A DNA stretch of 64,000 bases from Cryobacterium lactosi (GTDB lineage: Bacteria > Actinomycetota > Actinomycetes > Actinomycetales > Microbacteriaceae): contig NZ_SOHM01000029.1 of NCBI RefSeq assembly GCF_004403945.1, positions 100,978-164,977 on the forward strand, given 5' to 3'. The notes below the pieces were generated by a model. That model was not told the DNA's origin and did no database searches. It worked only from the letters and a program-made list of their open reading frames with translations. This document shows, one piece after another, positions 1 through 16,029 of the stretch (the first letter of the stretch is position 1; each line of letters opens with the position of its first letter). Made by a program: the position numbers and the translations under genes.

Positions 1-2574
1 AAGAGCCTCGTGGGCGGTACCGTGGGCGGTCGGCAGCACAAACTCCGGGTTTGAGGGGTCGGGAATCTGAGCCGTGATGTATGAGCTGGCGACCACCTGA
101 CCACGACGGTTCGTGAGTGTGGCGAACAGCAGCACGGTGGGCGCGTCCACGTCACCGCGCACGGCGAACACCTGGTTGCGTCCCAGGTTCGACAGGGCAC
201 GGTCACTGGCCCACTCCAGCACGGGATGCAACGGGCCGAGGTAGTGCGCCTCGGGCCACAGTGACGTGCTGGCCTTGTTGTCCCGAGCATCCTGCAACAG
301 CGCCTTGCCTCGCTGAGGGGAGACGACCAGCTTGAGCTCGTCGATGACATTGCGATCACGTAGGTAGCTCTGCGGTAGCACCTCGAGGCGCTGGGCGAGG
401 TCACGGGTGGGCGAGAGTGAGACCAAGCCGTGGTTCGGGTATTCGTGCCAGTTCACACCGTTGTCGGCGACGGATGCTGCGGGAGTGGCGAAGGTCGCCT
501 GAAGCGCTTCGCGGAGGAAGGCTGTGTCGTCGGCGAAGAGGCCACTACCGGCATCCGTCGCACCGGATGCCGCGGCGCTCGGCTGTGTCGAACCCTGACC
601 GGCGGCAAGTCGCGCCAGCAGAGCGCCGATACTGTCGCCGTTGTCGATCACGTGATCGGGAGTGGGTACCGCCTCATCGAGGTTCTTCTTGCCGGCGAGC
701 ACCTTGCGGATTTCGTCCTCTTCGACCTTGGCGTCGTACTTGCCCATGAGCGATGCGGCGTCGCCGAGGGCGCTGTGAGCTTCATGCTCGCGCTCGAGCA
801 CGCGCTTCAGCACGCGGATGTCCCCGGCGAACTTGTCGTTTGAGGGGTCGAGCAGCAGGGTCGTGATCTGCGGGCGTTTCTTCTGGCCGTACCGGTCGAT
901 GCGACCGTTGCGCTGCTCGATGCGGATGAGGCTCCACGGAATGTCAAAGTGAATCAGCTCGTGGCACTGGGAGTGTAGGTTGACGCCCTCGGAAGCGACA
1001 TCGCCGGTGATGAGCACGCGGATCGGGGATGAGGACTGCTTGAAGCTCTCAACGATTTCCTGCTGCTCAACGTCGGTCAGGCCGCCGTGAAGGACTCGAA
1101 TCTGGTCGTCTTTGAGCTTGAGGTCGGTGAGCAGCTTGGCGCGGAGCCAGTGCAGGGTGGCGACGCGTTCCGAGAAGACGACGGCGCGCTCAGTGCCCTT
1201 GCGGCTGACATCGATCGATTTGAGGTACTCGACGAGCCTCATGTACTTGGCCGAGGGCGCGGAGAGGGCCGCATCCGACAGGTCGGAGAGGTACGCGAGA
1301 GCTTCGCGCTCTCTGGCCTGGCCCCCGTCGGCAGGCGGGGTTACCTTCCTTAGCCGTTCCTTGACCGATTCCTTGAGTGCGGCGGGTGACGACAGGAATG
1401 CCTTTGCGAGCGTCCAGGGAAAGAGGCTGCCGTTGTCGCCCGAGTACGGAGAAGAACCATTTTCGGGGTGGAGCCAGACGTTCGCGAGCTCATCGGCTGC
1501 CGCGTTCTCGGCGGGTGAGGCATCGACGAGGAAGTGCTGAGGCGGCATCCGCTCTGCCCAGTCGGCGCCGACTTCGCGCGCGACCTCTTCACTATGGCGG
1601 TGCCGTCGGATGATGAGACGTTTCACCTCGGACTCGATGATCTCGCCGTCCGGGGTCACAGCGGTGGGTTCGAGCAGGCGGATGAGTTCGGCGAAGGATT
1701 CCTTGTTGCCGTTGTGCGGAGTGGCACTTGCCAAGATCAGGGCTTCGGTGTTTGGCGCGAGGACGCGCGCGAGACGGTTGTTGAGGGTCTTGCCGGTGAT
1801 GTTGTGCGACTCGTCGATCACCACGGCATCCCATTTGTACTTCGCCAGGTGGCTGCGGTATTTCTCCTGCTTGAGCGTGTCGATCGAGATGATGGCGCGC
1901 TTGTAGAGGCTGAAGGGGTTGCGAGTGGCAGGGAGTTTTTGGCGCACGCGTTGGATGCCGACGGAGTCGAGGCGCACGAACGGAAGCGCGAATCGCGTCC
2001 ACATCTCATGCTGCATTTGCTCGAGCACGTGGCGTGGCGTGACGATCAGGATTCGTTCACCGCGACCGCGACGAACGAGCTCGGAGAGGATCATGCCGAT
2101 TTCGAGTGTCTTCCCCAGGCCGACCGCGTCAGCGATGAGTATGCGCGGACGCAGATTCTCGGGATCCAAAGCCTTCCGCACGGCGGCCTGCTGGTACGCG
2201 AGTGGGTCGGCGAGCATCCGAGTCGAGACGGTGAGCTCTGGAGCGTTAAGCGGCACCGGCGACTTGCGCAGGGTGGCTTCGAGCCAGAGCTTTGCGGTGC
2301 GGTAGCCCGCGGAATCGTCGCCGACGACAGTGGCCTGCTCGGGGTCAAGCGGAACGATCGTGTCGATGCCGCTGTAGAAGGCCGCCGTGGAGTCGCGGAC
2401 GAGTTCGGAGAGTCCTTGGCAACGGATGAGCGTGCCGGAGGTCGTTTCCTCGGTGCTCGTAACCAGCCATTCGGCGTCGCGGACGATGACGATGGAGCCG
2501 GGCGCTACCGCGAGACCGGAATGACCGACTTGTTCAGCGAGCGGCTCGGAATTCTCAAGCGTTGCATGTGCCAT
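1..2574 (-). CDS. SNF2/RapA-type DNA-translocating helicase (C-terminus cut by window edge)
   Basis: 858 codons are visible; the C-terminus lies beyond base 1. The start ATG at 2574 has a GGAGGTG ribosome site 7 bases upstream. Seen: Walker A ADAVGLGKT (residues ~148-156), DEAH-type box DESH (~254-257), SATPHNG (~283-289), then helicase-C motifs GDVASEGVNLHSQC and RNGRIDRYGQ. About 140 residues precede the ATPase core. Known: such SNF2 proteins move along dsDNA using ATP, and relatives occur in phage-defence systems, for example DrmD of DISARM, and beside DNA methyltransferases. Inference: this is the first gene of a defence or restriction module continuing to the left, since it is the last intact gene of a minus-strand run containing a defence RT. 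Whether it is DrmD itself cannot be decided without the missing neighbours. Confidence 0.85.
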   Translation of the reverse strand, partial: MAHATLENSEPLAEQVGHSGLAVAPGSIVIVRDAEWLVTSTEETTSGTLIRCQGLSELVRDSTAAFYSGIDTIVPLDPEQATVVGDDSAGYRTAKLWLEATLRKSPVPLNAPELTVSTRMLADPLAYQQAAVRKALDPENLRPRILIADAVGLGKTLEIGMILSELVRRGRGERILIVTPRHVLEQMQHEMWTRFALPFVRLDSVGIQRVRQKLPATRNPFSLYKRAIISIDTLKQEKYRSHLAKYKWDAVVIDESHNITGKTLNNRLARVLAPNTEALILASATPHNGNKESFAELIRLLEPTAVTPDGEIIESEVKRLIIRRHRHSEEVAREVGADWAERMPPQHFLVDASPAENAAADELANVWLHPENGSSPYSGDNGSLFPWTLAKAFLSSPAALKESVKERLRKVTPPADGGQAREREALAYLSDLSDAALSAPSAKYMRLVEYLKSIDVSRKGTERAVVFSERVATLHWLRAKLLTDLKLKDDQIRVLHGGLTDVEQQEIVESFKQSSSPIRVLITGDVASEGVNLHSQCHELIHFDIPWSLIRIEQRNGRIDRYGQKKRPQITTLLLDPSNDKFAGDIRVLKRVLEREHEAHSALGDAASLMGKYDAKVEEDEIRKVLAGKKNLDEAVPTPDHVIDNGDSIGALLARLAAGQGSTQPSAAASGATDAGSGLFADDTAFLREALQATFATPAASVADNGVNWHEYPNHGLVSLSPTRDLAQRLEVLPQSYLRDRNVIDELKLVVSPQRGKALLQDARDNKASTSLWPEAHYLGPLHPVLEWASDRALSNLGRNQVFAVRGDVDAPTVLLFATLTNRRGQVVASSYITAQIPDPSNPEFVLPTAHGTAHEAL

Positions 2575-2804
2575 CGCTGGCACCTCCGTTCCGACGCCCC
2601 CGCCGCTCACGCGACCATCAAAACCAAAGGTGCGTTGTTGTGTGTTGCTTAGTAACTGTATCTGAGCCGCACGCGGCGGGTGCCGGCAGCACGTCCCACC
2701 TTTGGGGGCGCCCTCAACGCGCCGGCACGCCGGGCAAGGCGAGGTCGGGTGCGCTTTAGCAGCATGCGCCGCCCTGCTTCGCTCACATCAAGAACGGGTC
2801 GCGT

Positions 2805-4049
2805 TCAGGCGCGCTCGTCTTCGTTCTCGCGGCGGCGAAGGGCACCCGCAGCGATTTTTATGGAGAGCTTGTCCGTTGCCGAACGAGCGCGGCCGATAGT
2901 CTCGTTACCCATTCCTCTTGCGGCGCCCACACCCTCCGCACCCGTCTCGAGCATCTTGTCTCTCACATCAGTGGCCGCATCAACCCATCGTCTCGCCTCC
3001 ACTAACTCTCGTGTGCGCTCGATCCCGAGCGCTCCCTGGAAACCAACAACGCCGATCGCCACAAGGTTGCTCGAATCGACCACTGCCCGGGACGTGGCCG
3101 GGTGAAGCAGCACCTTCGTCTTGGCCGTTCCCGCGGCCGCATCCATTCGGTCAATCAGATGCCCGGTGCTCCGCGCGATGAGTTCCAGCCGGTTCTGCCG
3201 GGCAGCCCTCAAGCCGAGACGATGTTGATCCAGTTCGTCCGGCGCCGCGTCGAGCACTCGGTCCAGCTCGAGCACAGCCAGCGCATCCTGCAGTTTGAAG
3301 CACCGAGCGAGCACGGCGAGCCACTCCGGAACCGTGGACTCGGCATCCTTGGAGGTCTTGGCGACATCGCCGATCTTGGCTTTGTTCTCCAACTTCTCTG
3401 CAACCGCATCCAGTTGACGGAGTGCGAAGGCCTGGGTTCGCGCGACTGTCACCAACGTGCCTTGGACCTTCGACCACGTGACGTCGGAGACTCGGCCCAC
3501 CTGCTTTCGCACCGTCATGGCCTCTTCGACCATAAAGTCCACTCCGATCATGTCCGCCAGCACCGCATCCTTCTGGGCGCGGAGCAGATCGTCGACCTTC
3601 TCATCGATGACGGCGAGGTAGTCGGTAATCTCATCCATGGCCTGCTGCATCGCAAGCTGGGCCATGAGACCCGCAGCGCCGGCGAGCATCGCTGGGTTGG
3701 TGAGCACAGCACCAGGTCCTTTGGAGAATTCGAGGATCTTCACGAACTGGCCCTTGTCCCCGCGGAGAACGCCAGTCTTCAGACCCGTCGCGGAGTTCTT
3801 CACCAGAGGAAACTTCGTGGCCAGCTGAGCGGATTCCTTGGTCAGCTTCACCCACCGGGCTGAATTGGCGGCAATCTCAGACCCCGCTTGAGCGGCCCCG
3901 GCCGCTGCGAACAAGGTCGGTTTGAACCGTTGCAGCGTGAGTTCCTGCGATGAAAGCCCCTCCGACTGGAGGAAAGACTCCACAGCCAGTGGCTCGCCGA
4001 TGACGGCTATACCGTCACCATCACTAATCAGCTGAATTTCGTTGCTCAT
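2805..4049 (-). CDS. Conserved hypothetical helical protein, 414 aa
   Basis: Family not recognised. The ATG at 4049 is preferred over one 17 codons upstream because GGAG lies 7 bases before it. The N-terminal ~40 residues (MSNEIQLISDGDGIAVIGEP) look like a small beta-rich segment. The rest appears alpha-helical, with an Ala/Gly/Met-rich weakly hydrophobic stretch around residues 115-140 (AMLAGAAGLMAQLAMQQAM) and charged helices afterwards. No signal peptide and no catalytic motif were seen. It lies between the helicase (230 bp downstream) and the RT-nitrilase gene (427 bp upstream), all on the minus strand. A role in the same accessory island is inference only, and it could be an independent cargo gene. 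Confidence 0.75.
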   Translation of the reverse strand: MSNEIQLISDGDGIAVIGEPLAVESFLQSEGLSSQELTLQRFKPTLFAAAGAAQAGSEIAANSARWVKLTKESAQLATKFPLVKNSATGLKTGVLRGDKGQFVKILEFSKGPGAVLTNPAMLAGAAGLMAQLAMQQAMDEITDYLAVIDEKVDDLLRAQKDAVLADMIGVDFMVEEAMTVRKQVGRVSDVTWSKVQGTLVTVARTQAFALRQLDAVAEKLENKAKIGDVAKTSKDAESTVPEWLAVLARCFKLQDALAVLELDRVLDAAPDELDQHRLGLRAARQNRLELIARSTGHLIDRMDAAAGTAKTKVLLHPATSRAVVDSSNLVAIGVVGFQGALGIERTRELVEARRWVDAATDVRDKMLETGAEGVGAARGMGNETIGRARSATDKLSIKIAAGALRRRENEDERA

Positions 4050-4476
4050 CGTTCGCTCCGTTCGCCAGCGATGCCATTTCGGAAGCGAAATACCTCGCAT
4101 GCTCAGTCTGGCGCTGAGCCGAATCGCTCCCGGACTACACCGCCCCCGATCGGCGCGATGAAGACCCCCATTTCAGGGGTCAAGCCGGCCCGTGTTCTGG
4201 CCGTCGGAGCCTCCGAACTCATTCAGAACGGCCTGACTTGACGACATCAGCCGGTCGCAGACGCTTGCAAGGCTCAAGAGGATCCAAGGGCACCAATGCA
4301 ATTCGACCATACGTGCACCGTGGCCTCAGAAGTCCAGCGGCGGGCGGGCGCGGGTCGCGGGCCGGGTGACGGGTACTCCGTGCACCATCACCTTGTCCTT
4401 GGCCCGCACATGGAGGTGCGGCGTAATTTACTCAACGGAGGATAACCGCGCACTCGCCCTGAAGCTTCGGACAGGT
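4050..4476. other. Intergenic region downstream of the RT gene
   Basis: This 427-bp stretch lies between the RT stop codon and the start of the 414-residue protein. It contains one clear hairpin, CCGCAC-ATGGAG-GTGCGG at 4404-4421, which could end RT transcription but has no T-tract. The rest is GC-rich (4330-4370 is a G/C run), and no open frame or tRNA is convincing. Some defence RTs use an adjacent noncoding RNA, so this is where one would look, but nothing visible proves one. Confidence 0.4.
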
Positions 4477-7458
4477 TCAATCCCGAGCTGGAAGCGACCT
4501 TCTTCCGGGCGCCATGAAGAATCCGTCAGGTACTGGTTTGAAGGGCCCGTCAGGCGAACGGTAGCTGGACTGGAACTGTCGAAGGGAGCCGACGTCGATG
4601 TCTCCCGTAACGATGTAGTCGCGGACACCGCCCTTGATCTTTACTATGTCGCGTTTCCACGCGTCGCGGTACGGCGCGCGGATGCGGCTATCGCCGTACT
4701 CCCTGTCGTTGCACTGAACGATATAGGCATGGATGTCGAGTGCCGCAGACTCAATCAATGCCTCAAATGTCGTCGTGTCCCTATTCCACTCTGGCACGAA
4801 CAATGCGTCGATTCGCCCACGCAGTTGTGCCCTGTAGTCGATGTTGGTGAGCTCGCTGCAGACCAATATCGCGAAGCTGAAACCACCATGGTCGATTACT
4901 GTCAGAGGCTGCTCGATCGACGTCGGGTCGAGTGTCAAACCGGCAAGCCGATGAAGTTGCTGCTCTTCGTGGAGGGCGAGTCTTTGTTTGTCCTGCCTGT
5001 AGATCGTCATCGACGGAAAGCCCAATCCGTCGTGGCCAAGTGCGGCCCAAACCTGGTTGCGAATACCCCCATCGCCATAATGGAGATACTCCACCCCAGC
5101 AATCAGCGAGATACCCTTCGCCTGCAGTTTTTGCGCGATTCGCATGAACCAATTTGCCGGTATGGCCAGTTCTGGCAAGATCAAGTAATCGATCTCTCCT
5201 GATTGAGAAATAGCTTCGTTGATCAAGGTATTTAGTCGCCGATAGCGATCTTGATCTGGATCAACGTGCCGCATGACTGAAGCCACCCAGCTCCCGTCTG
5301 TCGTTTTCCAGCTCCCAAGTGCAATGCGCTTCATGCTCGAGGGATCTTGGGACTGCAGGACCAAACTGGGGTTCGTGGGCCCGTCGAGATAAGGCAACCT
5401 GCTGACAAGGGAGAACCCCCGCAGCGCCAGCATCGCTCCGCTGATCTCCTTCTGCGAGTCCAGCGCAAATGGCCGCGGTGCCACGATGAACAGCTCGGCA
5501 AGGCTGAACGGCCGTGTAGGAAACGCCAAACCAATCGGGATCATCTGAAGGCCTATCCACCCGATAATCGATTTGAGCCCGCGGCGTACAACTAAGGGCA
5601 TTAGCGAAATAGGCACCTGTGGCAAATCTGTCGGCACACTCGCCAGCCCGCGTACAATTTCTGGGGGCAAAAACGCAAACCTCAGCGGAGAATAGGCAAG
5701 GTCGTGAGCAAACAGACGGTCATGCCCCACCATTAGGGCATCAACGTCGAGTCGAAAATGACCCACAGTCAAAGGGTCTAGCGACGCAACTGCTGCATCC
5801 CACCGGATCACTTCGGACGGGGACAATAGCGAGGGGAACGCCGATACAACGGCTTCATAGATCGATTCACGAACATATCCACTCCACTTACGGAGGACCA
5901 TTGAGGTCTGCAACTCGCGTGTTGGTTTGGACTTCACGTGGACGTGGCAGTCGCTCCGCACGCTTTCGATCACATCAGTTACTGCAAGGACGATTTCCGC
6001 CAGCTTTTCGAAGTCCTTACACGCCGTCGCTAATCTGATCACTCGAGTGAGGTATGCGGCCAACTCAAAGAAATTCGGGAGAACGAGAACGTGCTCAAGA
6101 AAGGCCTCGTAGAAGGCGAGTCGGTGTTCGCGCCAAGCTTCCGGCTCAAGATCCCGCTCATAGGCCTCCAAGTCACGGAGCTGCAGCGCGAATCCTGCGC
6201 GGCGCATCGTTAGGGAGTCTGTTTTTCTGAGGTTGTCGGCGCCCTCGCCGTCAATCTGCGTCGCGGTGACCATTTCTGTGGCTACGGCGGTTGCATGCTC
6301 AGGGAGATTCGGGAGGGAGCGCCATTCACTTGCCCGTTGATGAATCTGGCGCGCAATGGATTCAACCATTACTCTGCCTGAGACTCCATGCAATAGGAAG
6401 ATCTTGTTCTTGTTATTAGCGAAAAGAATCCGGCTATCACCCAGGTATGGCGCGCTGTATCGAACGCCCTCGGTCTCGCCGGAATCGCGAGTGAGCCTCC
6501 CATTGGAACGGCTGAATAGCCAATTCCACAGCTCTGTCGGCGTAGAGAAACCTTTGCCGTTCTCCATAACAAGCATGATGTCATCAACGTATCGCCCGTA
6601 ATACAGTGGAACGACTTCGCGCTCCATGGCCCGATCAAGTTCGATGAGGGCCATATTCGCAATCACCGCTGACGCCGGCAGGCCAACCGGAAGCCCTCGC
6701 CTGAGGGGTGTCAATGCCGCCCAGGCGCGAATAGCCTCAATGAAGAGTCCATTCAACTTCTCTTCTGGTCCCGTTAGCTCTAGCCCCAAAACGCCAGACA
6801 CAAATGCAGAGTCCTGCATGAACCGGGGATCGAGCTCATGATAGAAGGAACTCACATCCGCCGTGATGGCGACTATCCTTTTGTCCTCCGATAGTGCCTT
6901 GCGCATCGAAGACAGACCTTCGTCTCGCCAAGTCCGAAAGGGCGCCATGTAGGGAGAAAAGGAACCAAGCGACAGCTCATTCAGACCGCCGTTTGCTTGC
7001 CTGCGCAACCGATTTCCGTAGGCAGAAACGGTCAGCGAGTCGTCAAATTTGTGACCAACTTTCATCATCCAGAGTGTCGAAAGCACGTGTAGGTCAATGC
7101 TGCATTTTGCGGTTAGTCGAAATTCCGCGGTTGGGCGATTGGTTGGTGCCTCGGTGGCCATCCTGTCCCGGATTTGTCTCCATAGATCAGCCGGGGCTGA
7201 CACCATGAGCTCGTCGTCGTCCTCGGATCGGGTGACCACCTTCACGGTCGTAGGCAGATATACATAGCCGCCGAGGAAATCGGGTTCCTTGACCCAATCA
7301 GCCGACTTGCCGTTGATCCTCTTCCGAAGCGCCCGTAGGTTAGCCTCAAGATTCGCCTCGTAGTCAGCAATGGCCGTTACGGAGGGACTGGTCGTGTAGT
7401 ACAGGTCGAGCTTTGCCTTCCGATAGGCCATTCCCATGTCGACAAGCGTCCAACTCAT
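4477..7458 (-). CDS. Reverse transcriptase-nitrilase fusion, DRT type 1 / UG1-like anti-phage protein
   Basis: 993 residues, two enzyme domains. RT domain, about residues 105-370: motif A aspartate D201 in AITADVSSFYHELD, motif B RRGLPVGLPASAVIANMAL (253-271), and the catalytic YVDD box at 290-293, so all three metal-binding aspartates are present. An all-helical linker spans roughly 410-700. The C-terminal nitrilase/CN-hydrolase-like domain (~710-990) keeps a Glu-Lys-Cys triad: E763 in LPELAIP, K824 in YRQDKQ, C867 in ILVCSEL. Known: UG-lineage RTs fused to nitrilase-like domains (UG1, DRT type 1) defend against phages. No group-II-intron or retron parts are evident. Base composition is clearly more AT-rich than the neighbours, consistent with transfer. 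The start overlaps a short upstream frame by ATGA. Exact UG subgroup is inferred and needs a tree. Confidence 0.9.
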   Translation of the reverse strand: MSWTLVDMGMAYRKAKLDLYYTTSPSVTAIADYEANLEANLRALRKRINGKSADWVKEPDFLGGYVYLPTTVKVVTRSEDDDELMVSAPADLWRQIRDRMATEAPTNRPTAEFRLTAKCSIDLHVLSTLWMMKVGHKFDDSLTVSAYGNRLRRQANGGLNELSLGSFSPYMAPFRTWRDEGLSSMRKALSEDKRIVAITADVSSFYHELDPRFMQDSAFVSGVLGLELTGPEEKLNGLFIEAIRAWAALTPLRRGLPVGLPASAVIANMALIELDRAMEREVVPLYYGRYVDDIMLVMENGKGFSTPTELWNWLFSRSNGRLTRDSGETEGVRYSAPYLGDSRILFANNKNKIFLLHGVSGRVMVESIARQIHQRASEWRSLPNLPEHATAVATEMVTATQIDGEGADNLRKTDSLTMRRAGFALQLRDLEAYERDLEPEAWREHRLAFYEAFLEHVLVLPNFFELAAYLTRVIRLATACKDFEKLAEIVLAVTDVIESVRSDCHVHVKSKPTRELQTSMVLRKWSGYVRESIYEAVVSAFPSLLSPSEVIRWDAAVASLDPLTVGHFRLDVDALMVGHDRLFAHDLAYSPLRFAFLPPEIVRGLASVPTDLPQVPISLMPLVVRRGLKSIIGWIGLQMIPIGLAFPTRPFSLAELFIVAPRPFALDSQKEISGAMLALRGFSLVSRLPYLDGPTNPSLVLQSQDPSSMKRIALGSWKTTDGSWVASVMRHVDPDQDRYRRLNTLINEAISQSGEIDYLILPELAIPANWFMRIAQKLQAKGISLIAGVEYLHYGDGGIRNQVWAALGHDGLGFPSMTIYRQDKQRLALHEEQQLHRLAGLTLDPTSIEQPLTVIDHGGFSFAILVCSELTNIDYRAQLRGRIDALFVPEWNRDTTTFEALIESAALDIHAYIVQCNDREYGDSRIRAPYRDAWKRDIVKIKGGVRDYIVTGDIDVGSLRQFQSSYRSPDGPFKPVPDGFFMAPGRRSLPARD

Positions 7459-7670
7459 TCATTTGCCCCCAGCAGCTTCCCGAACACGAATCGCATAGAC
7501 GCCGGGCCTACAGACACTGCTTGAATTATGGCGCTGTCAGCATCTTTGCAGATGAGAGCGCACCTCAGCGCCGGATCCGACCACGCACACTCCGGCAAGC
7601 CTCGTCTGGATGGCGAATCTGCGGTCAAGACCTGTGCGGCGGTATCAGCGACAGCGGATAGTGGGTGGTT
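7455..7670 (-). pseudogene. Possible 3' remnant of a gene formerly upstream of the RT gene
   Basis: An open minus-strand frame ends with TGA overlapping the RT start codon (ATGA, 7455-7458), the arrangement used by coupled operon genes throughout this window. Its last ~70 codons (ending KLLGANE) precede the point near 7670-7686 where the sequence becomes antisense to the corA-leader remnant. Any original 5' part therefore seems lost or replaced. The product is not recognised. It may equally be a chance frame, and the case rests mainly on the overlap. Confidence 0.25.
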
Positions 7671-7685
7671 GCTTCGTGGAGGTTT

Positions 7686-7866
7686 GGAATCCGAGGTCCA
7701 GGCAGGGCCACGACACTTCGGTCGAAGGCGGGTGAGCGGCCACGGCGGGTGCAGTCCGAGCTCCACGCCCTCCGCGGGTGTCATTTTCGCCCTGACCTTC
7801 TAGGCCGGGCGTCGCGCTGGGAGTGGCGCGCTGCTGTGCCTCCTTCGCTAGGTGGCCTTTGATGCG
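7686..7866 (+). repeat. Decayed second copy of the corA leader
   Basis: This stretch matches the leader of the intact corA gene (about 19429-19606) from ATCCGAGG through the CCTCC...AGGTGG hairpin region. Conserved elements are the CTTCG-gt-CGAAG hairpin (7716-7727), GAAGGCGGGTGAG (7724-7736) and the CGCGCT-GGGAGT-GGCGCG hairpin. A long-range arm differs from the intact copy by a compensatory change: GACAC (7712-7716) with GTGTC (7778-7782), against GACAA with TTGTC. It runs directly into a corA 3' remnant. Confidence 0.8.
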
Positions 7867-7868
7867 CG

Positions 7869-8072
7869 GCTGGCGCAGAACGAAGAAGCGAGGAAGACTC
7901 CTCACGGGCGGCGATCCTGTTCGCGCCGGCCCTGGCGGGCACTATTTGCGGCATGAACTTCGACCACATGCCGAAACTGAACTGGGCGTACGGGGATCCT
8001 TCCGCCGTGGCAGCGGTGGCGCTGATGGGGTTCGGGCTGTAAGGGATCTCCAAGCGGCGGAAGTGGCTTTAA
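7869..8072 (+). pseudogene. corA 3'-terminal remnant
   Basis: The sequence aligns codon by codon with the last ~67 codons of the intact corA (19689-20747), from the LAQNEE segment through GMNF to the KRRKW end. The Gly-Met-Asn motif of CorA transporters is still readable (GCATGAACTTC). The intervening ~830 bp of coding sequence, including the start, is missing, and a Trp codon near the end has become TAA (about 8039-8041). The copy is therefore a leader joined to a C-terminal stub. It cannot make a transporter. Confidence 0.85.
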
Positions 8073-8109
8073 GCGCGCATGGTCGGGTCGATAGGGACCT
8101 GCATTCGAA

Positions 8110-9447
8110 TCACCGATTCGTGCGCTGCTCTGAGGTTGTTGGCCTCTGCCAAGGCAATACCAAGACACGCGAATGCGAAGGACTTCGCTGTTCTTGGCGA
8201 CGGGGCATAGGGAAATCTCGCAGCTCTTCTCGCACGGCTAGGTAGATGCTCGTTTGGCCAGCCAATCCGGAGTCGACTGTTGTTCTTCCCACTTGAGACA
8301 TGGTCACACTTGCGCGTTCGGATCTGTTGTGAAGAATCCAAACGATGATCAGCGACAGGACATGAAGCAACGAAACGATACTTGCTGACAGCAGCCCGTA
8401 CGCCAATTGAATAAACATAGTCGACGCCATCACACACGCCAGACTCCCTATAAGCAAGGCTACGGACCTTCGCCATCGCGCATTGCGACCAGCAACGAAG
8501 GCTCTCTGCACCGGGAAGCAGGCTGTGGCTCCGATGGTGCCAACGATGCAGGCTGCACCTAAGGCTCTCGCGAAGAGGCCGGGAACACTTGAGAGGACGC
8601 TCCAATAGGGGTTGGTACTGACGGTCAAGTACACGACAAAGAAGGCAAGGAACACTGCTGTGGTGTACGCAAGAAATAAACCTACAAACTTCCATGAGGC
8701 GGCCCGAACGCTCCTCAAGATCTGCGCCAGGTTCGTATCGGTCAGAATACCCATCGGCGACGAGGACGTGGCGTGACGGAGCCACCGCGTTTGCCATACA
8801 CCTCGGTGGTTGGCTGCCACATCATAGGTTTCTTCTTCGTAAGTCGCCATCGCCATGGCCTCGGCGGGCGATCTTGTATTAGCGGCCGCAATCAGCACAA
8901 AGACCCAGGCAATGCCAGCGACAACTAACGCGAGTATTAGTCCGTCAAATGGAGTGGCCTTCGAGGTGAAATAGACCTGAATACCTCGGATGAGCGCCGA
9001 AGCACCTATGAAGGCGATTAGGACAGACACCCCTACGAGCGTCTCTGACAAGATCAGCGCAGCCGCTTGAGCCTTGTGCAACGAAGCCGTCGAGGCTGCG
9101 AACTCCGCATCCACAAGTGACGATCGAAATACAGGCCGCTTGTCTGAAAGCACGATGCCCACCACAACAAGGGCAAAGACCGAGACCGCGAGCAGAGCTT
9201 CTTCAGGTTCGATGCCGAGAGCTGGAACAGGGATATTGGGGATTTGGACCGCGGAGAAGAGCTCGGCACCATAGAGCAGGATCGAACCAGCAACAGCAAA
9301 TGCCGAAATACGAAGAGCCCGGTTGACAATTGCTCGTCTTGAATCAGTGACGGGAGTCGACACAGGTTTCGTCCTCGTCACTGCCACAGCCTTGCTCCGC
9401 CTGGAACCGCGGAATGGTGCATGACTCTCGACCACAGACTCCCCCAT
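8110..9447 (-). CDS. Polytopic membrane protein of unknown function, 445 aa
   Basis: Family not recognised. After a ~40-residue basic cytoplasmic N-terminus there are about eight hydrophobic segments: residues ~48-68, 85-103, 130-150, 165-190, then a soluble loop of ~60 residues, followed by ~255-275, 290-310, 335-355 and 360-380. A polar tail of ~60 residues closes the protein. No transporter signature or catalytic motif is visible. It is the outermost gene of the accessory region, between the corA debris and the IS481 remnant. The ATG at 9447 starts MGESVVES; no strong ribosome site decides between this and nearby starts. Confidence 0.65.
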   Translation of the reverse strand: MGESVVESHAPFRGSRRSKAVAVTRTKPVSTPVTDSRRAIVNRALRISAFAVAGSILLYGAELFSAVQIPNIPVPALGIEPEEALLAVSVFALVVVGIVLSDKRPVFRSSLVDAEFAASTASLHKAQAAALILSETLVGVSVLIAFIGASALIRGIQVYFTSKATPFDGLILALVVAGIAWVFVLIAAANTRSPAEAMAMATYEEETYDVAANHRGVWQTRWLRHATSSSPMGILTDTNLAQILRSVRAASWKFVGLFLAYTTAVFLAFFVVYLTVSTNPYWSVLSSVPGLFARALGAACIVGTIGATACFPVQRAFVAGRNARWRRSVALLIGSLACVMASTMFIQLAYGLLSASIVSLLHVLSLIIVWILHNRSERASVTMSQVGRTTVDSGLAGQTSIYLAVREELRDFPMPRRQEQRSPSHSRVLVLPWQRPTTSEQRTNR

Positions 9448-9821
9448 TGACTCGAGTCAATCCCGTGGACCCGCCCTCCGATTATGGTCGCGCTTGACTG
9501 CCGGAAACGCCTACGGCCGCTAAGGGACCACCCCCATTTCGAGGTTCTAGTCCACGGGCTGCCGCAGACGTCCCCGCTCACACCGCTTTCGTTCCAACCT
9601 GCGCGTTCGGCACTGCCAAGTCATCGAACCTGTCGGGGCCAGCGAGTCGACCTTCTTGTGCGCGCATTTGCGCAATGCTCACCGTTGACAGGCGACCAGG
9701 CAACGGTGCGCTACCTTCACCAGCAAGACCCCTCTGGTCATACCCGATGCGGTGACTGGCGTGCCGGTTGGCTAGTTGTACTGAGCCGACAGGTTGGTGA
9801 CAGTAGGGGTTGAAAAAAGGG
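9448..9821. other. Intergenic stretch, no gene seen
   Basis: About 370 bp between the membrane protein start and the IS481 remnant. Frames are short and have no recognisable product. There is a region suited to promoters for the minus-strand gene (ATTGACTCGAG near 9447-9460), but nothing I would call. Confidence 0.4.
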
Positions 9822-9875
9822 AGAACCTCCGGTTCTAGTGGAGATGTCTAAGTCGCCACGAACGCGGAGGTTCTC
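9822..9875 (+). repeat. Left-end inverted repeat of the IS481-family remnant
   Basis: GAGAACCTCC (9822-9831) is the exact inverse of GGAGGTTCTC (9866-9875), immediately before the transposase ATG at 9876. It forms a 10-bp stem around the start. This is probably the left end of the element. The matching right end is absent downstream. Confidence 0.55.
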
Positions 9876-10490
9876 ATGCCCCACGCTAATACCCGTTTGA
9901 CCCTTCATGGAAGGTCACTGCTGATCGAACGGGTCGTCGTTGATGGCCGCCCGGTCTCGCACGTCGCCAAGGAACTCGGCATCTCCCGGCAGTGCGCGAA
10001 TCGGTGGCTCAATCGCCACCGTGCCGAAGGGACGACTGGGCTTCATAACCGGTGGTCTCGACCGCGCACCAGCCCGAGGAAGACCAGCGCCGACACGAAG
10101 CCGCTGTCGTGGTCGCCCGTCTCCTGGATCGCGATGGTCCGCTGCGGATCCCAGCCGTCACGAAGGTTCCCCGGTGACGGTATCGCGGATCCTGACCCGC
10201 GACGGCTTCCCACCACTGTCCTGGCTGGACCCGATCACCGGCGAGACAACCCGCTCCTCCCGGGCGAGCACGAACCAGTACGAGCGCGATCGGCCAGGCG
10301 AGCTGGTCCATACCGACGTGAAGAAATTGGGCCGCATCCCGGACGGCGGCGGCTGGCGCGCGCTCGGCCGAGAAGCGACCGTGGCCCACAACCACAAGAA
10401 GGTCCGCATCGGATTCGATTACGTCCACGCCGTCATCGACGACCACTCCCGCCTCTCGCTCACCGTTAGTGACTACACGCCGCCCGATTT
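9876..10490 (+). pseudogene. IS481-family transposase, frameshifted and truncated
   Basis: The N-terminal helix-turn-helix is readable in the first frame (RPVSHVAKELGISRQCANRW). It continues in another frame as RHEAAVVVARLLDRDGPLRI (near 10092-10150), and in a third from VSRILTRDGFPP through ERDRPGELVHTDVKKLGRI to the start of the DDE core, VIDDHSRL. At least two frameshifts are therefore needed. The reading ends soon after the second catalytic Asp region, so the last DDE glutamate and the right end are missing. Known: IS481 transposases are ~320-390 aa DDE enzymes. This copy is inactive. Confidence 0.9.
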
Positions 10491-12810: not shown

Positions 12811-14351
12811 TTGAAGCTCGTCTGGGTGAAGTCGAACAGGCCGTCGGCGCGGGGCGTCCAGTCGAGGTCGGGGTCGGCAGCGTAGTTGTTCATCGGCACG
12901 TAGAGCGGCACGTAGTAGCCCTGCTCGTTGCTGTAGCTGAGCAGTTCCGTGAACACGTCGAGGCGGCTCTCGCCCTCCACACCGCGCTGCTCGGCGGCCA
13001 GTTCGGCGGTGCGCGGGTCCTGCGCGTAGTTGTTGTTCCCGGCCGGCTCGTACAGGTCGGTGAGCGGCAGATCGCCGTCCACGGTGGAAGGCGCCCAGGT
13101 GTTCAGGTAGATCCCCTCCATCTCCCGGCCGCGCACCTTGAGAGTGTGTGCCTGCTGGTCGGCTCCGCGCAGGTCGACCGTGAAGCCAACATCCTCGAGG
13201 GAAGCCTGGATGGTCTGGGCCACATCCGCGGAGAGCGGGATGCGACCGTCGGTGGCGTAGTCGAACGGGATCGGCTCCCCGGCGTACCCGGCCTCGGCGA
13301 GCAGCTCGCGGGCCCGGTCGGGGTCGTAGCCCGGGTCGGTCACCTCGTCGCTGTAGCCCTCCACGGCCGGGGCGAGGGTCGTGCTGGCGGGCTCGGCGAG
13401 CCCGGAGAGCAGGCCCTCGGTGATGGCCTCCTTGTCGATAGCGAGGCCGATGGCTTCGCGGATGCGCGCATCCGTCAGCACGCCGCTGGTGGAGTTGACG
13501 CCGAGGAAGACGACACCGTTGGAGAGTGCGGAGAACACCTGGGCGGAGTCCTGGCTCTCCACCGACTCCACCTGGGTCGGGCCGATGGGAGCCACGTCGA
13601 GGCTGCCGGAGAGCACGCCGTTGACCCGGGACTCGTCGGAGGAGACCGGCTGCAGCGAGATCGATTCGATCGCCGGTGCCGCGCCCCAGTAGTCGTCGTT
13701 GCGCACCAGGTCGTAGGAGACGCCGGTCTGGATCTTGTCGAAGACGTACGGTCCCGAGCCGATCGGGGCCTGCGCGAACGCGTCGGCTCCCATCTCCTGG
13801 TAGGTGTCGGCGGGCACGATCGAGATCAACGAGGTGTTGCGCGGGAACGCCGAGAACGGCGACTTGAGAATGAAGCGCACCGTGAGGTCGTCAACGGCTT
13901 CGACCGAGGCGACCGAACTGAGGTAGGCGAAGTTCTCGCCGGTGGGGTCGGCGAGGATGGTCTGGTACGAGAACGCCACGTCCTCGGCGGTGATGGCCTC
14001 ACCATTGCTGGCGGTGACGCCCTCCTGCAGGGTGAAGTCCCACTGGGTGAGGTCGTCGTTGGGGGTCCACTCGGTGGCGAGCTTGGGGGCGAGTTCACCG
14101 TCGGCGGTGATCGTGACGAGCTGGTCGAAGGTGTGGAAGAACACCGACAGCACCACCAGGGCGCCGGACTTGATCGGGTCCATCGAGGTGGGGTCGGTGG
14201 GGATCGCGGCGACGATGCGCGTCGGGGTGTCGCCCGAGCCGGCGTCACCGCCCTCGTCGAAGCCGCCGGCGCACCCGGAGAGCAGCAGGGTTCCGGTGGC
14301 GGCGAGCGCGCCGATGCTGAGCATCCGGCGGCGGAAGGTGGATGTGGGCAT
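12807..14351 (-). CDS. Peptide/nickel-type ABC transporter substrate-binding lipoprotein (SBP family 5)
   Basis: 514 residues. The start MPTSTFRRR at 14351 is chosen for the AGGA 8 bases upstream; an ATG four codons earlier is possible. The signal peptide ends in lipobox LLLSGCAGG, so the protein is anchored outside the membrane. Family-5 features are visible: LATEWTPNDDLTQWDFTL, the disordered DP-rich N-terminal part, and RELLAEAGYAG near residue 360. Known: these proteins deliver oligopeptides or small nitrogenous compounds to Dpp/Opp permeases. It lies between the ATPase gene (53 bp upstream) and the amidohydrolase (4-bp overlap). The enzymes beside it suggest a ligand other than a plain peptide. 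Confidence 0.92.
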   Translation of the reverse strand: MPTSTFRRRMLSIGALAATGTLLLSGCAGGFDEGGDAGSGDTPTRIVAAIPTDPTSMDPIKSGALVVLSVFFHTFDQLVTITADGELAPKLATEWTPNDDLTQWDFTLQEGVTASNGEAITAEDVAFSYQTILADPTGENFAYLSSVASVEAVDDLTVRFILKSPFSAFPRNTSLISIVPADTYQEMGADAFAQAPIGSGPYVFDKIQTGVSYDLVRNDDYWGAAPAIESISLQPVSSDESRVNGVLSGSLDVAPIGPTQVESVESQDSAQVFSALSNGVVFLGVNSTSGVLTDARIREAIGLAIDKEAITEGLLSGLAEPASTTLAPAVEGYSDEVTDPGYDPDRARELLAEAGYAGEPIPFDYATDGRIPLSADVAQTIQASLEDVGFTVDLRGADQQAHTLKVRGREMEGIYLNTWAPSTVDGDLPLTDLYEPAGNNNYAQDPRTAELAAEQRGVEGESRLDVFTELLSYSNEQGYYVPLYVPMNNYAADPDLDWTPRADGLFDFTQTSFK

Positions 14352-14404
14352 GGGGATCCTCATTTCGGTGGGTGACACAAAGGGGACGAAGGGTGGCTGT
14401 GGGG

Positions 14405-16029
<1,625 letters not shown>

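Follow-up and report, generated by a model that had tools for sequence, protein, structure and literature searches.

A UG5-large reverse transcriptase-nitrilase gene in a defence island of Cryobacterium lactosi, with relatives in BREX and restriction-modification operons

The stretch of DNA considered here, referred to as the window, comprises 64,000 nucleotides of Cryobacterium lactosi (NCBI RefSeq assembly GCF_004403945.1, contig NZ_SOHM01000029.1, positions 100,978 to 164,977 of the forward strand). At 4477–7458, on the minus strand, it carries a complete gene for a 993-residue fusion of a reverse transcriptase (RT) and a nitrilase, which sits in a defence island of low guanine-cytosine (GC) content together with genes for an SNF2 helicase, a type IIG methyltransferase, a DruE-like helicase and a UvrD-type helicase. 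The gene is a single open frame of 993 codons that begins with the ATG at 7458 and ends with the stop codon at 4477; a GGGGG resembling a ribosome-binding site precedes the start, and the plus strand over the same interval contains many stops. Given the 993 codons and a full-length profile match (E 2e-290), a chance frame can be dismissed. An earlier note, made from the letters alone, had placed an intact and complete gene at exactly these coordinates, and rightly so, but had left its strand unstated. It had also described the gene as less GC-rich than its surroundings, which holds: the GC content is 55.6%, compared to 66.7% over the whole window and 68.0% between 11 and 64 kb, and at third codon positions it is 63.5%, compared to 87.2% in a nearby amidohydrolase gene.

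By sequence, we assign this gene to the UG5-large family and not to UG1, the family of the defence-associated reverse transcriptase (DRT) DRT1. The PADLOC profile RT_UG5-nitrilase (PDLC03780) matches residues 3–991 of 993 over profile positions 21–901 of 907, with 964 bits and an E-value of 2.2e-290, whereas the Drt1a profile reaches 94 bits, its best stretch (748–969) being the nitrilase part. When the RT part (1–330) is searched alone, it obtains 352 bits with UG5-nitrilase and 106 bits with UG5_small, and no Drt1a match was found for it at E<=1e-15. Membership among the retron or group II intron RTs is rejected as well, with 28.7 bits for the retron St85 RT (cutoff 235) and 20 bits for the maturase RT profile (cutoff 300). 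In an RT tree of 28 rows, a check that had been proposed at the outset, the window RT groups with 19 other UG5 sequences (support 92/88), apart from two plasmid proteins that score >1300 bits as Drt1a and from five RTs retrieved with a group II model. These five are part of six found with that model, only one of which exceeds its cutoff, and no retron was knowingly included. An RT-nitrilase from Leptospira, for which a partial match to the UG5-nitrilase profile is the best one, adjoins the UG5 group on a very long branch; the deep nodes of this tree have only moderate support, and the tree program flagged a risk of long-branch joins.

Accordingly, of the earlier typing as a defence gene of DRT type 1, the UG/Abi defence part stands and the UG1 part does not. 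In the passage available, PMC8934634 describes both unknown RT classes 1 and 5 as nitrilase fusions, which may be the source of the mix-up. The resemblance to DRT1 is real: the order of RT and nitrilase is the same, and a profile search matched DRT1 (PDB 9YFD) in both domains. However, the window protein is 236 residues shorter and belongs to a different RT family, so that a UG1/DRT1 system sharing the DRT1 mechanism in every detail, down to an equivalent of its priming residue Ser402, is very improbable in view of the profile scores and of the position of the Drt1a proteins in the tree. Instead, the gene adds a well-preserved member to a family within the class 3 UG/Abi RTs that is known but has been studied little, and which it resembles in its full-length match, its domain order and all of its catalytic residues; no feature that we tested sets it apart from its relatives, other than its genomic position.

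Both active sites are intact, as the earlier note had read them. We aligned 20 sequences, including that of the window and leaving out the broken copies at loci L004 and L072 and the duplicate L018; the most distant one is about 31% identical to the window protein and keeps the catalytic residues of both enzymes. Invariant throughout (20/20) are, in the RT, the catalytic Asp201 of the TAD motif (6856–6858; all codons given here are on the minus strand) and the active-site motif Y290-V-D-D293 (6580–6591), which aligns with the YVDD of DRT1, and, in the nitrilase, Glu763 (5170–5172), Lys824 (4987–4989), Glu831 (4966–4968) and the nucleophile Cys867 (4858–4860). The positions of YVDD at 290–293, Glu763 (PELAIP), Lys824 (YRQDK) and Cys867 (LVCSE) had been given correctly; Glu831 is the second nitrilase glutamate and completes the tetrad Glu-Lys-Glu-Cys. 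Near the C-terminus, K974, P977 and G979 are likewise invariant, and position 980 is Phe in 18 sequences and Tyr in two.

An AlphaFold model (14-sequence input; pLDDT 82.5, pTM 0.84) shows an RT-like half, a helical middle domain (residues ~389–680 by secondary structure; 5419–6294, minus strand) and a C-terminal part (~705–984; 4507–5346, minus strand) that folds as a nitrilase; this agrees with the earlier reading of both domains. Of the two outcomes named in the earlier note as refuting it, an RT placed among group II introns or retrons (the tree holding no known retron row) and a C-terminal part of another fold, neither was observed. With VIA-align, residues 705–984 superimpose on CN-hydrolases at Z 21–23 (up to 23.2), in comparisons that barely cover the RT half. 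For the latter, Foldseek returned chains of UG15/DRT4, AbiK, DRT9, AbiA and DRT6 (E 3e-7 to 7e-6); DRT1 9YFD is not among the 50 matches listed, from a copy of the database that ends in April 2026, and we draw no conclusion from this. To our knowledge, the solved structures of the set to which these chains belong, AbiK, Abi-P2, AbiA, DRT4, DRT6 and DRT9, are without a nitrilase. DRT9 differs further in that, according to passages of the literature, it uses a non-coding RNA.

In the last columns of the alignment with DRT1, K974-P-V-P977-D-G979-F980 (4519–4539, minus strand) falls onto DRT1 K1219-T-Q-P-A1223-G-F1225, and in the DRT1 study (PMC13275509, here and below as far as its passages were available) residues 1218–1221 cover the nitrilase pocket of the neighbouring subunit, K1219 and A1223 being essential. 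Because of this correspondence, we regard the K-x-x-P-x-G-F lid motif, as predicted from the alignment, as common to the UG5-large and DRT1 families, a shared feature rather than a mark of membership, and one that would make structure-function results on DRT1 transferable to UG5. In our model, residues 964–993 have low confidence, which fits a tail crossing to a neighbouring subunit and fits disorder equally well.

Around the gene, a tight minus-strand operon leaves the window leftwards (window 1–2610; L019 5212–18621). Its first gene encodes a DrmD-like SNF2 helicase of 987 residues, of which one part lies at 1–2610 and the rest to the left of the window; then follow a type IIG restriction-methyltransferase (1568 residues, 1454 bits), a DruE-like helicase (2144 residues) and a UvrD-type helicase. 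Past this operon, on the opposite strand, lies an SRA-HNH protein resembling type IV restriction enzymes (L019 4142–5062, plus strand, left of the window). A 431-residue protein (2805–4100, minus strand) is encoded between the RT-nitrilase gene and the SNF2 operon; upstream, a hydrophobic protein of 445 residues, by eye a membrane protein (8110–9447, minus strand), is the nearest neighbour, and a remnant of an IS481-family transposase (9772–10455, plus strand) marks the right edge of the low-GC island. Neither the 431-residue protein (at E<=0.01) nor the 445-residue protein has a match in PADLOC, Pfam, NCBIfam or PHROGs. A fixed module of the RT-nitrilase with either of them was considered and rejected, for neither turned up by tblastn in the other UG5 loci, of which 18, including one duplicate, were covered; the 445-residue neighbour is thus not conserved.

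The association with the SNF2 operon is loose too. When 297 genomes of the order were searched, 27, the own genome among them, contained a relative of its type IIG enzyme. For 20 of the 26 others we inspected the upstream side, which at L040 and L041 extends for only 1.9 and 4.4 kb to the contig ends. An SNF2 gene adjoins the type IIG relative in all 20, and a UG5 gene stands on this upstream side in none, so that UG5 is an optional guest of the SNF2/type IIG island. A single relative of the 431-residue protein turned up in these 20 genomes (L038, 61% identical), about 9 kb upstream of the SNF2-type IIG pair.

Patchiness also characterizes the family at large. Among 60 near-relative genomes, only the own genome is positive, and the UG5 RT-nitrilase is absent from 36 other congeners; in the order, 2 of 396 genomes carry it (own included), and in the phylum of L013, 5 of 398 (that of L013 included). 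One scan of a species-level genome collection yielded 14 relatives, plasmids contributed one from S. meliloti (53.5% identical) and a distant E. coli form (30%), and no relative was found in phage records and viral contigs. The E. coli form is present in 253 of 5426 E. coli genomes, where it is labelled as a hypothetical protein or RNA-directed DNA polymerase among the matches listed; on both chromosomes inspected (L078, L079), it is flanked by AbiE genes on one side and, on the other, by a tRNA-Thr/proA site with remnants of an integrase and ash. A search for Drt1a in 296 genomes of the window's phylum gave no match, but its controls were silent too, which makes it uninformative. In total, we assembled 22 distinct loci, one being that of the window; among the 21 others, two carry broken copies and one is confined to a 4.2-kb contig. 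The broken copies, at L004 5992–9008 in a Symbiopectobacterium genome and at L072 7091–10129 in a genome of the phylum of L013, are a sign that the gene can be lost.

This distribution, together with the low GC content and the defence neighbours, speaks against a domesticated enzyme with a housekeeping role. The strong conservation of both catalytic sites would suit such a role, but we consider it the least probable of all the explanations weighed here and give it next to no credence.

We think it probable, instead, that the gene encodes a single-protein defence of class 3. The RT half would add nucleotides onto a hydroxyl residue of its own, without an RNA template; the attached DNA would promote oligomerization of the nitrilase half and keep it poised, with the conserved C-terminal tail serving as a lid over the active site of the neighbouring subunit. 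Phage infection would then free the nitrilase, which would attack an essential small molecule and thereby abort the infection. The gene itself would have been gained horizontally within the defence island, to act beside defences based on DNA modification. Family, catalytic residues and lid make it most likely that the window protein works like DRT1 and DRT5. As reported for DRT1, this enzyme makes DNA in a template-free, protein-primed reaction and is kept dormant in filaments, its abortive infection needs both RT and nitrilase, and its defence depends on the RT aspartates and the nitrilase cysteine; DRT5S and DRT5L, once purified, likewise synthesize DNA when no template is supplied (PMC13275509, which counts the class 3 DRTs as the least characterized UG/Abi RTs). 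As for the priming residue, 13 Ser, Thr and Tyr residues are invariant in the 20 sequences, and of these Ser377 (6328–6330, minus strand) alone falls between the RT core and the helical domain. Its role as protein primer is a prediction and stays a guess, because the serine that primes DRT1 has no conserved counterpart in the other enzymes of class 3 (PMC13275509); the region of DRT1 Ser402 lies outside the aligned part of the 9YFD profile match.

Apart from the variable priming serine, several other points weigh against this reading. Its equation of DRT5L with UG5-large is our own, since the word UG5 does not occur in the text of PMC13275509, as far as this was available. The Abi and DRT fold matches of the RT half are globally weak (target TM-score 0.35–0.46, root-mean-square deviation >10 Å), and a group II-like RT (G2L4) and the RT of a diversity-generating retroelement match it about equally, so that these fold matches indicate an RT, not its subtype. 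Finally, the broken copies in 2 of the 22 loci mean that the gene is not always kept.

The 651-nucleotide gap upstream of the gene (7459–8109) could also harbour a non-coding RNA that serves as template, as in retrons or in DRT2 and DRT9, and several other DRTs do use RNAs, according to passages of PMC12596737 and PMC12489045. A scan of 3900–9700 for a dedicated upstream RNA, however, gave no Rfam match at gathering score, which is weak evidence, and in 6 of the 22 loci (L010, L012, L013, L015, L073 and L074) the UG5 gene starts within the upstream gene, overlapping it by 4 bp, which leaves no gap for a dedicated RNA there. Given that class 3 enzymes are described to act without a supplied template (PMC13275509), we regard an RNA-templated system as improbable, and keep to protein-primed, template-free synthesis as the expected activity.

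A stronger result than the window gene itself is the recurrent embedding of its relatives in operons for modification-based defence. For this comparison, open frames were predicted in each locus with a simple script, and profile scans were confined to the likeliest neighbours. In 10 of the 22 loci, the UG5 gene lies on the same strand and at most two genes away from a gene of a bacteriophage exclusion (BREX) system (L005, L006, L012, L013, L015 and L073), a type I restriction-modification (RM) system (L010, L071 and L074) or a type IIG enzyme (L075); the window, where the gene adjoins the SNF2/type IIG operon and is not within BREX, is a looser eleventh. In what was scanned, no such operonic link was found at L002, L003, L004, L007, L008, L009, L011, L014, L016, L017 and L072. 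Some of these have other neighbours: at L011, genes for PbeA-like and PDC-S37-like proteins lie upstream of UG5 and a BrxHI gene further off; at L017, AbiE adjoins it in near-identical copies; and at L072, a gene that by eye resembles PD-(D/E)XK nucleases does so. At L008, a type IIG methyltransferase is represented by a separate gene for its C-terminal half (13493–14944, minus strand; profile 439–910 of 912), and this may be a further case of a split modification enzyme in the vicinity of UG5.

In four of the 22 loci (L012, L013, L015 and L073), the UG5 gene stands between two genes that together form one PglX, the BREX methyltransferase. At L012, for example, the upstream gene matches positions 1–617 and the downstream gene positions 610–1173 of the pglX profile (length 1174). 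Placed on an intact PglX from a Methylomonas plasmid (1152 residues), the N-terminal halves cover 1–591 (L012), 1–558 (L013), 1–563 (L015) and 1–558 (L073), and all four C-terminal halves begin at 601–602. The NPPY motif lies in the N-terminal halves; that of L013 has 652 residues with an NPPY/F motif at 510, and that of L073 has 649 with NPPY at 509. In passages on PglX structures, the same motif is located at 509–512 and a hinge at 654–659 (PMC11341690), and the two jaws are given as residues 1–660 and 661–1205 (PMC11842806). Judged from the alignments, pglX is thus split at the hinge between its methyltransferase and DNA-recognition parts. L012, L013 and L015 come from metagenome-assembled genomes. 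The contig of L073 measures 3.55 Mb in a genome of 3.6 Mb, and its split is therefore no assembly seam. The gap at L015 also holds a PD-(D/E)XK gene. At L005, a C-terminal half follows UG5 and the other side is off the contig or different; the upstream frame of 159 residues has no pglX match, and the C-terminal half stands alone there. L007, whose RT falls together with those of the split-pglX loci in the tree, shows no pglX on its 4.2-kb contig.

In the sample of 398 genomes, 13 have a match to the C-terminal part of PglX; these comprise three split forms (frames of 585–609 residues), seven long ones (1167–1299) and three fragments; two of the three split forms hold UG5, one of which, L013, is the seed of the sample. 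One sample of this size is too small for statistics on joint occurrence; what counts as evidence is the nesting. We also looked into five further pglX genes from plasmids, four picked because their match started near the C-half start and one because it had two features under the match. Four are intact. The fifth (L109 7396–9704) lacks the first ~415 residues beside a Tn3-family transposase and, close to the hinge, runs in two frames that overlap; it has the look of a decaying gene. Since, in trees of the two PglX halves, split forms occur in both main groups and are mixed with intact ones, splitting has probably taken place more than once or been reversed, as far as sequence trees can tell. 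Whether the UG5 copies in split pglX form one group is answered differently by the tree of full-length UG5 proteins and by that of the RT parts, both at low support.

The third split form of the sample holds something else. At L093 (G854:C95, 4945–11972), pglX is divided at the same hinge, with the N-terminal half reaching residue 583 and the C-terminal half starting at 601, and encloses genes for a 482-residue protein, weakly matched by models of Argonaute systems, and for a pair resembling AriA/AriB of the PARIS defence system, without UG5. The pair matches the PARIS models moderately: the ATPase scores 90 bits for AriAB and 71 bits for AriA, and resembles other defence ATPases too, and the second protein scores 66 bits for AriB, yet falls below the Pfam cutoff for DUF4435. 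In PARIS, an ABC ATPase is joined to a TOPRIM-type nuclease and there is no RT; the likeness to UG5 lies in the place, as the pair of L093 occupies the very split site of pglX that UG5 uses elsewhere.

The recurrent embedding and the split pglX suggest a back-up or guard role of UG5. In its specific form, a guard would be set off when a phage protein such as Ocr inhibits the modification enzyme, freeing the nitrilase much as PARIS answers Ocr. The nine loci with UG5 in BREX or type I RM operons, the one beside a type IIG enzyme, the four insertions between pglX halves and the PARIS-like pair at the same site in another genome speak for such a guard, and PARIS is described to sense Ocr, which binds and inhibits PglX (passages of PMC11341690 and PMC12839542). 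On the other hand, DRT1 is active on its own in E. coli MG1655 (PMC13275509), and on the two E. coli chromosomes inspected the UG5-like gene occupies a satellite-like hotspot next to AbiE, outside an RM operon. In what was scanned, 11 of the 22 loci lack the link, and co-location is not interaction. On balance, we hold release by inhibition of the modification enzyme to be possible but rather unlikely.

In the literature searched, which covers few subscription papers, and as far as listings and passages tell, we found no description of UG5 in BREX or type I RM operons or in split pglX; one paper beyond these passages, PMC9122126, contains the words BREX, reverse transcriptase and nitrilase together. 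A 2026 survey of BREX describes auxiliary and back-up nuclease effectors, PARIS among them, in the passages available, and the terms 'reverse transcriptase', 'nitrilase', 'RT domain' and 'split' do not occur in its main text (PMC12839542); a truncated pglX has been noted in a cyanobacterium, in a passage that names no RT (PMC9716671).

Taken together, these loci suggest that PglX can be produced as two polypeptides, separated at the border that published structures draw between its jaws. The gap at the hinge has taken up an RT-nitrilase, a PARIS-like pair and a PD-(D/E)XK nuclease, and we would tentatively propose, at somewhat less than even chances, that it is a reusable slot whose modules may monitor the PglX halves, that UG5 proteins are plug-in back-up killers of modification-based immunity, and that the copy in C. 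lactosi is the same partnership with another modification system. The placing of UG5 in operons of BREX and type I RM systems points to a specific hypothesis on its trigger, namely the failure or inhibition of modification-based defence, and the split-pglX and RM loci provide the set in which this hypothesis may be tested.

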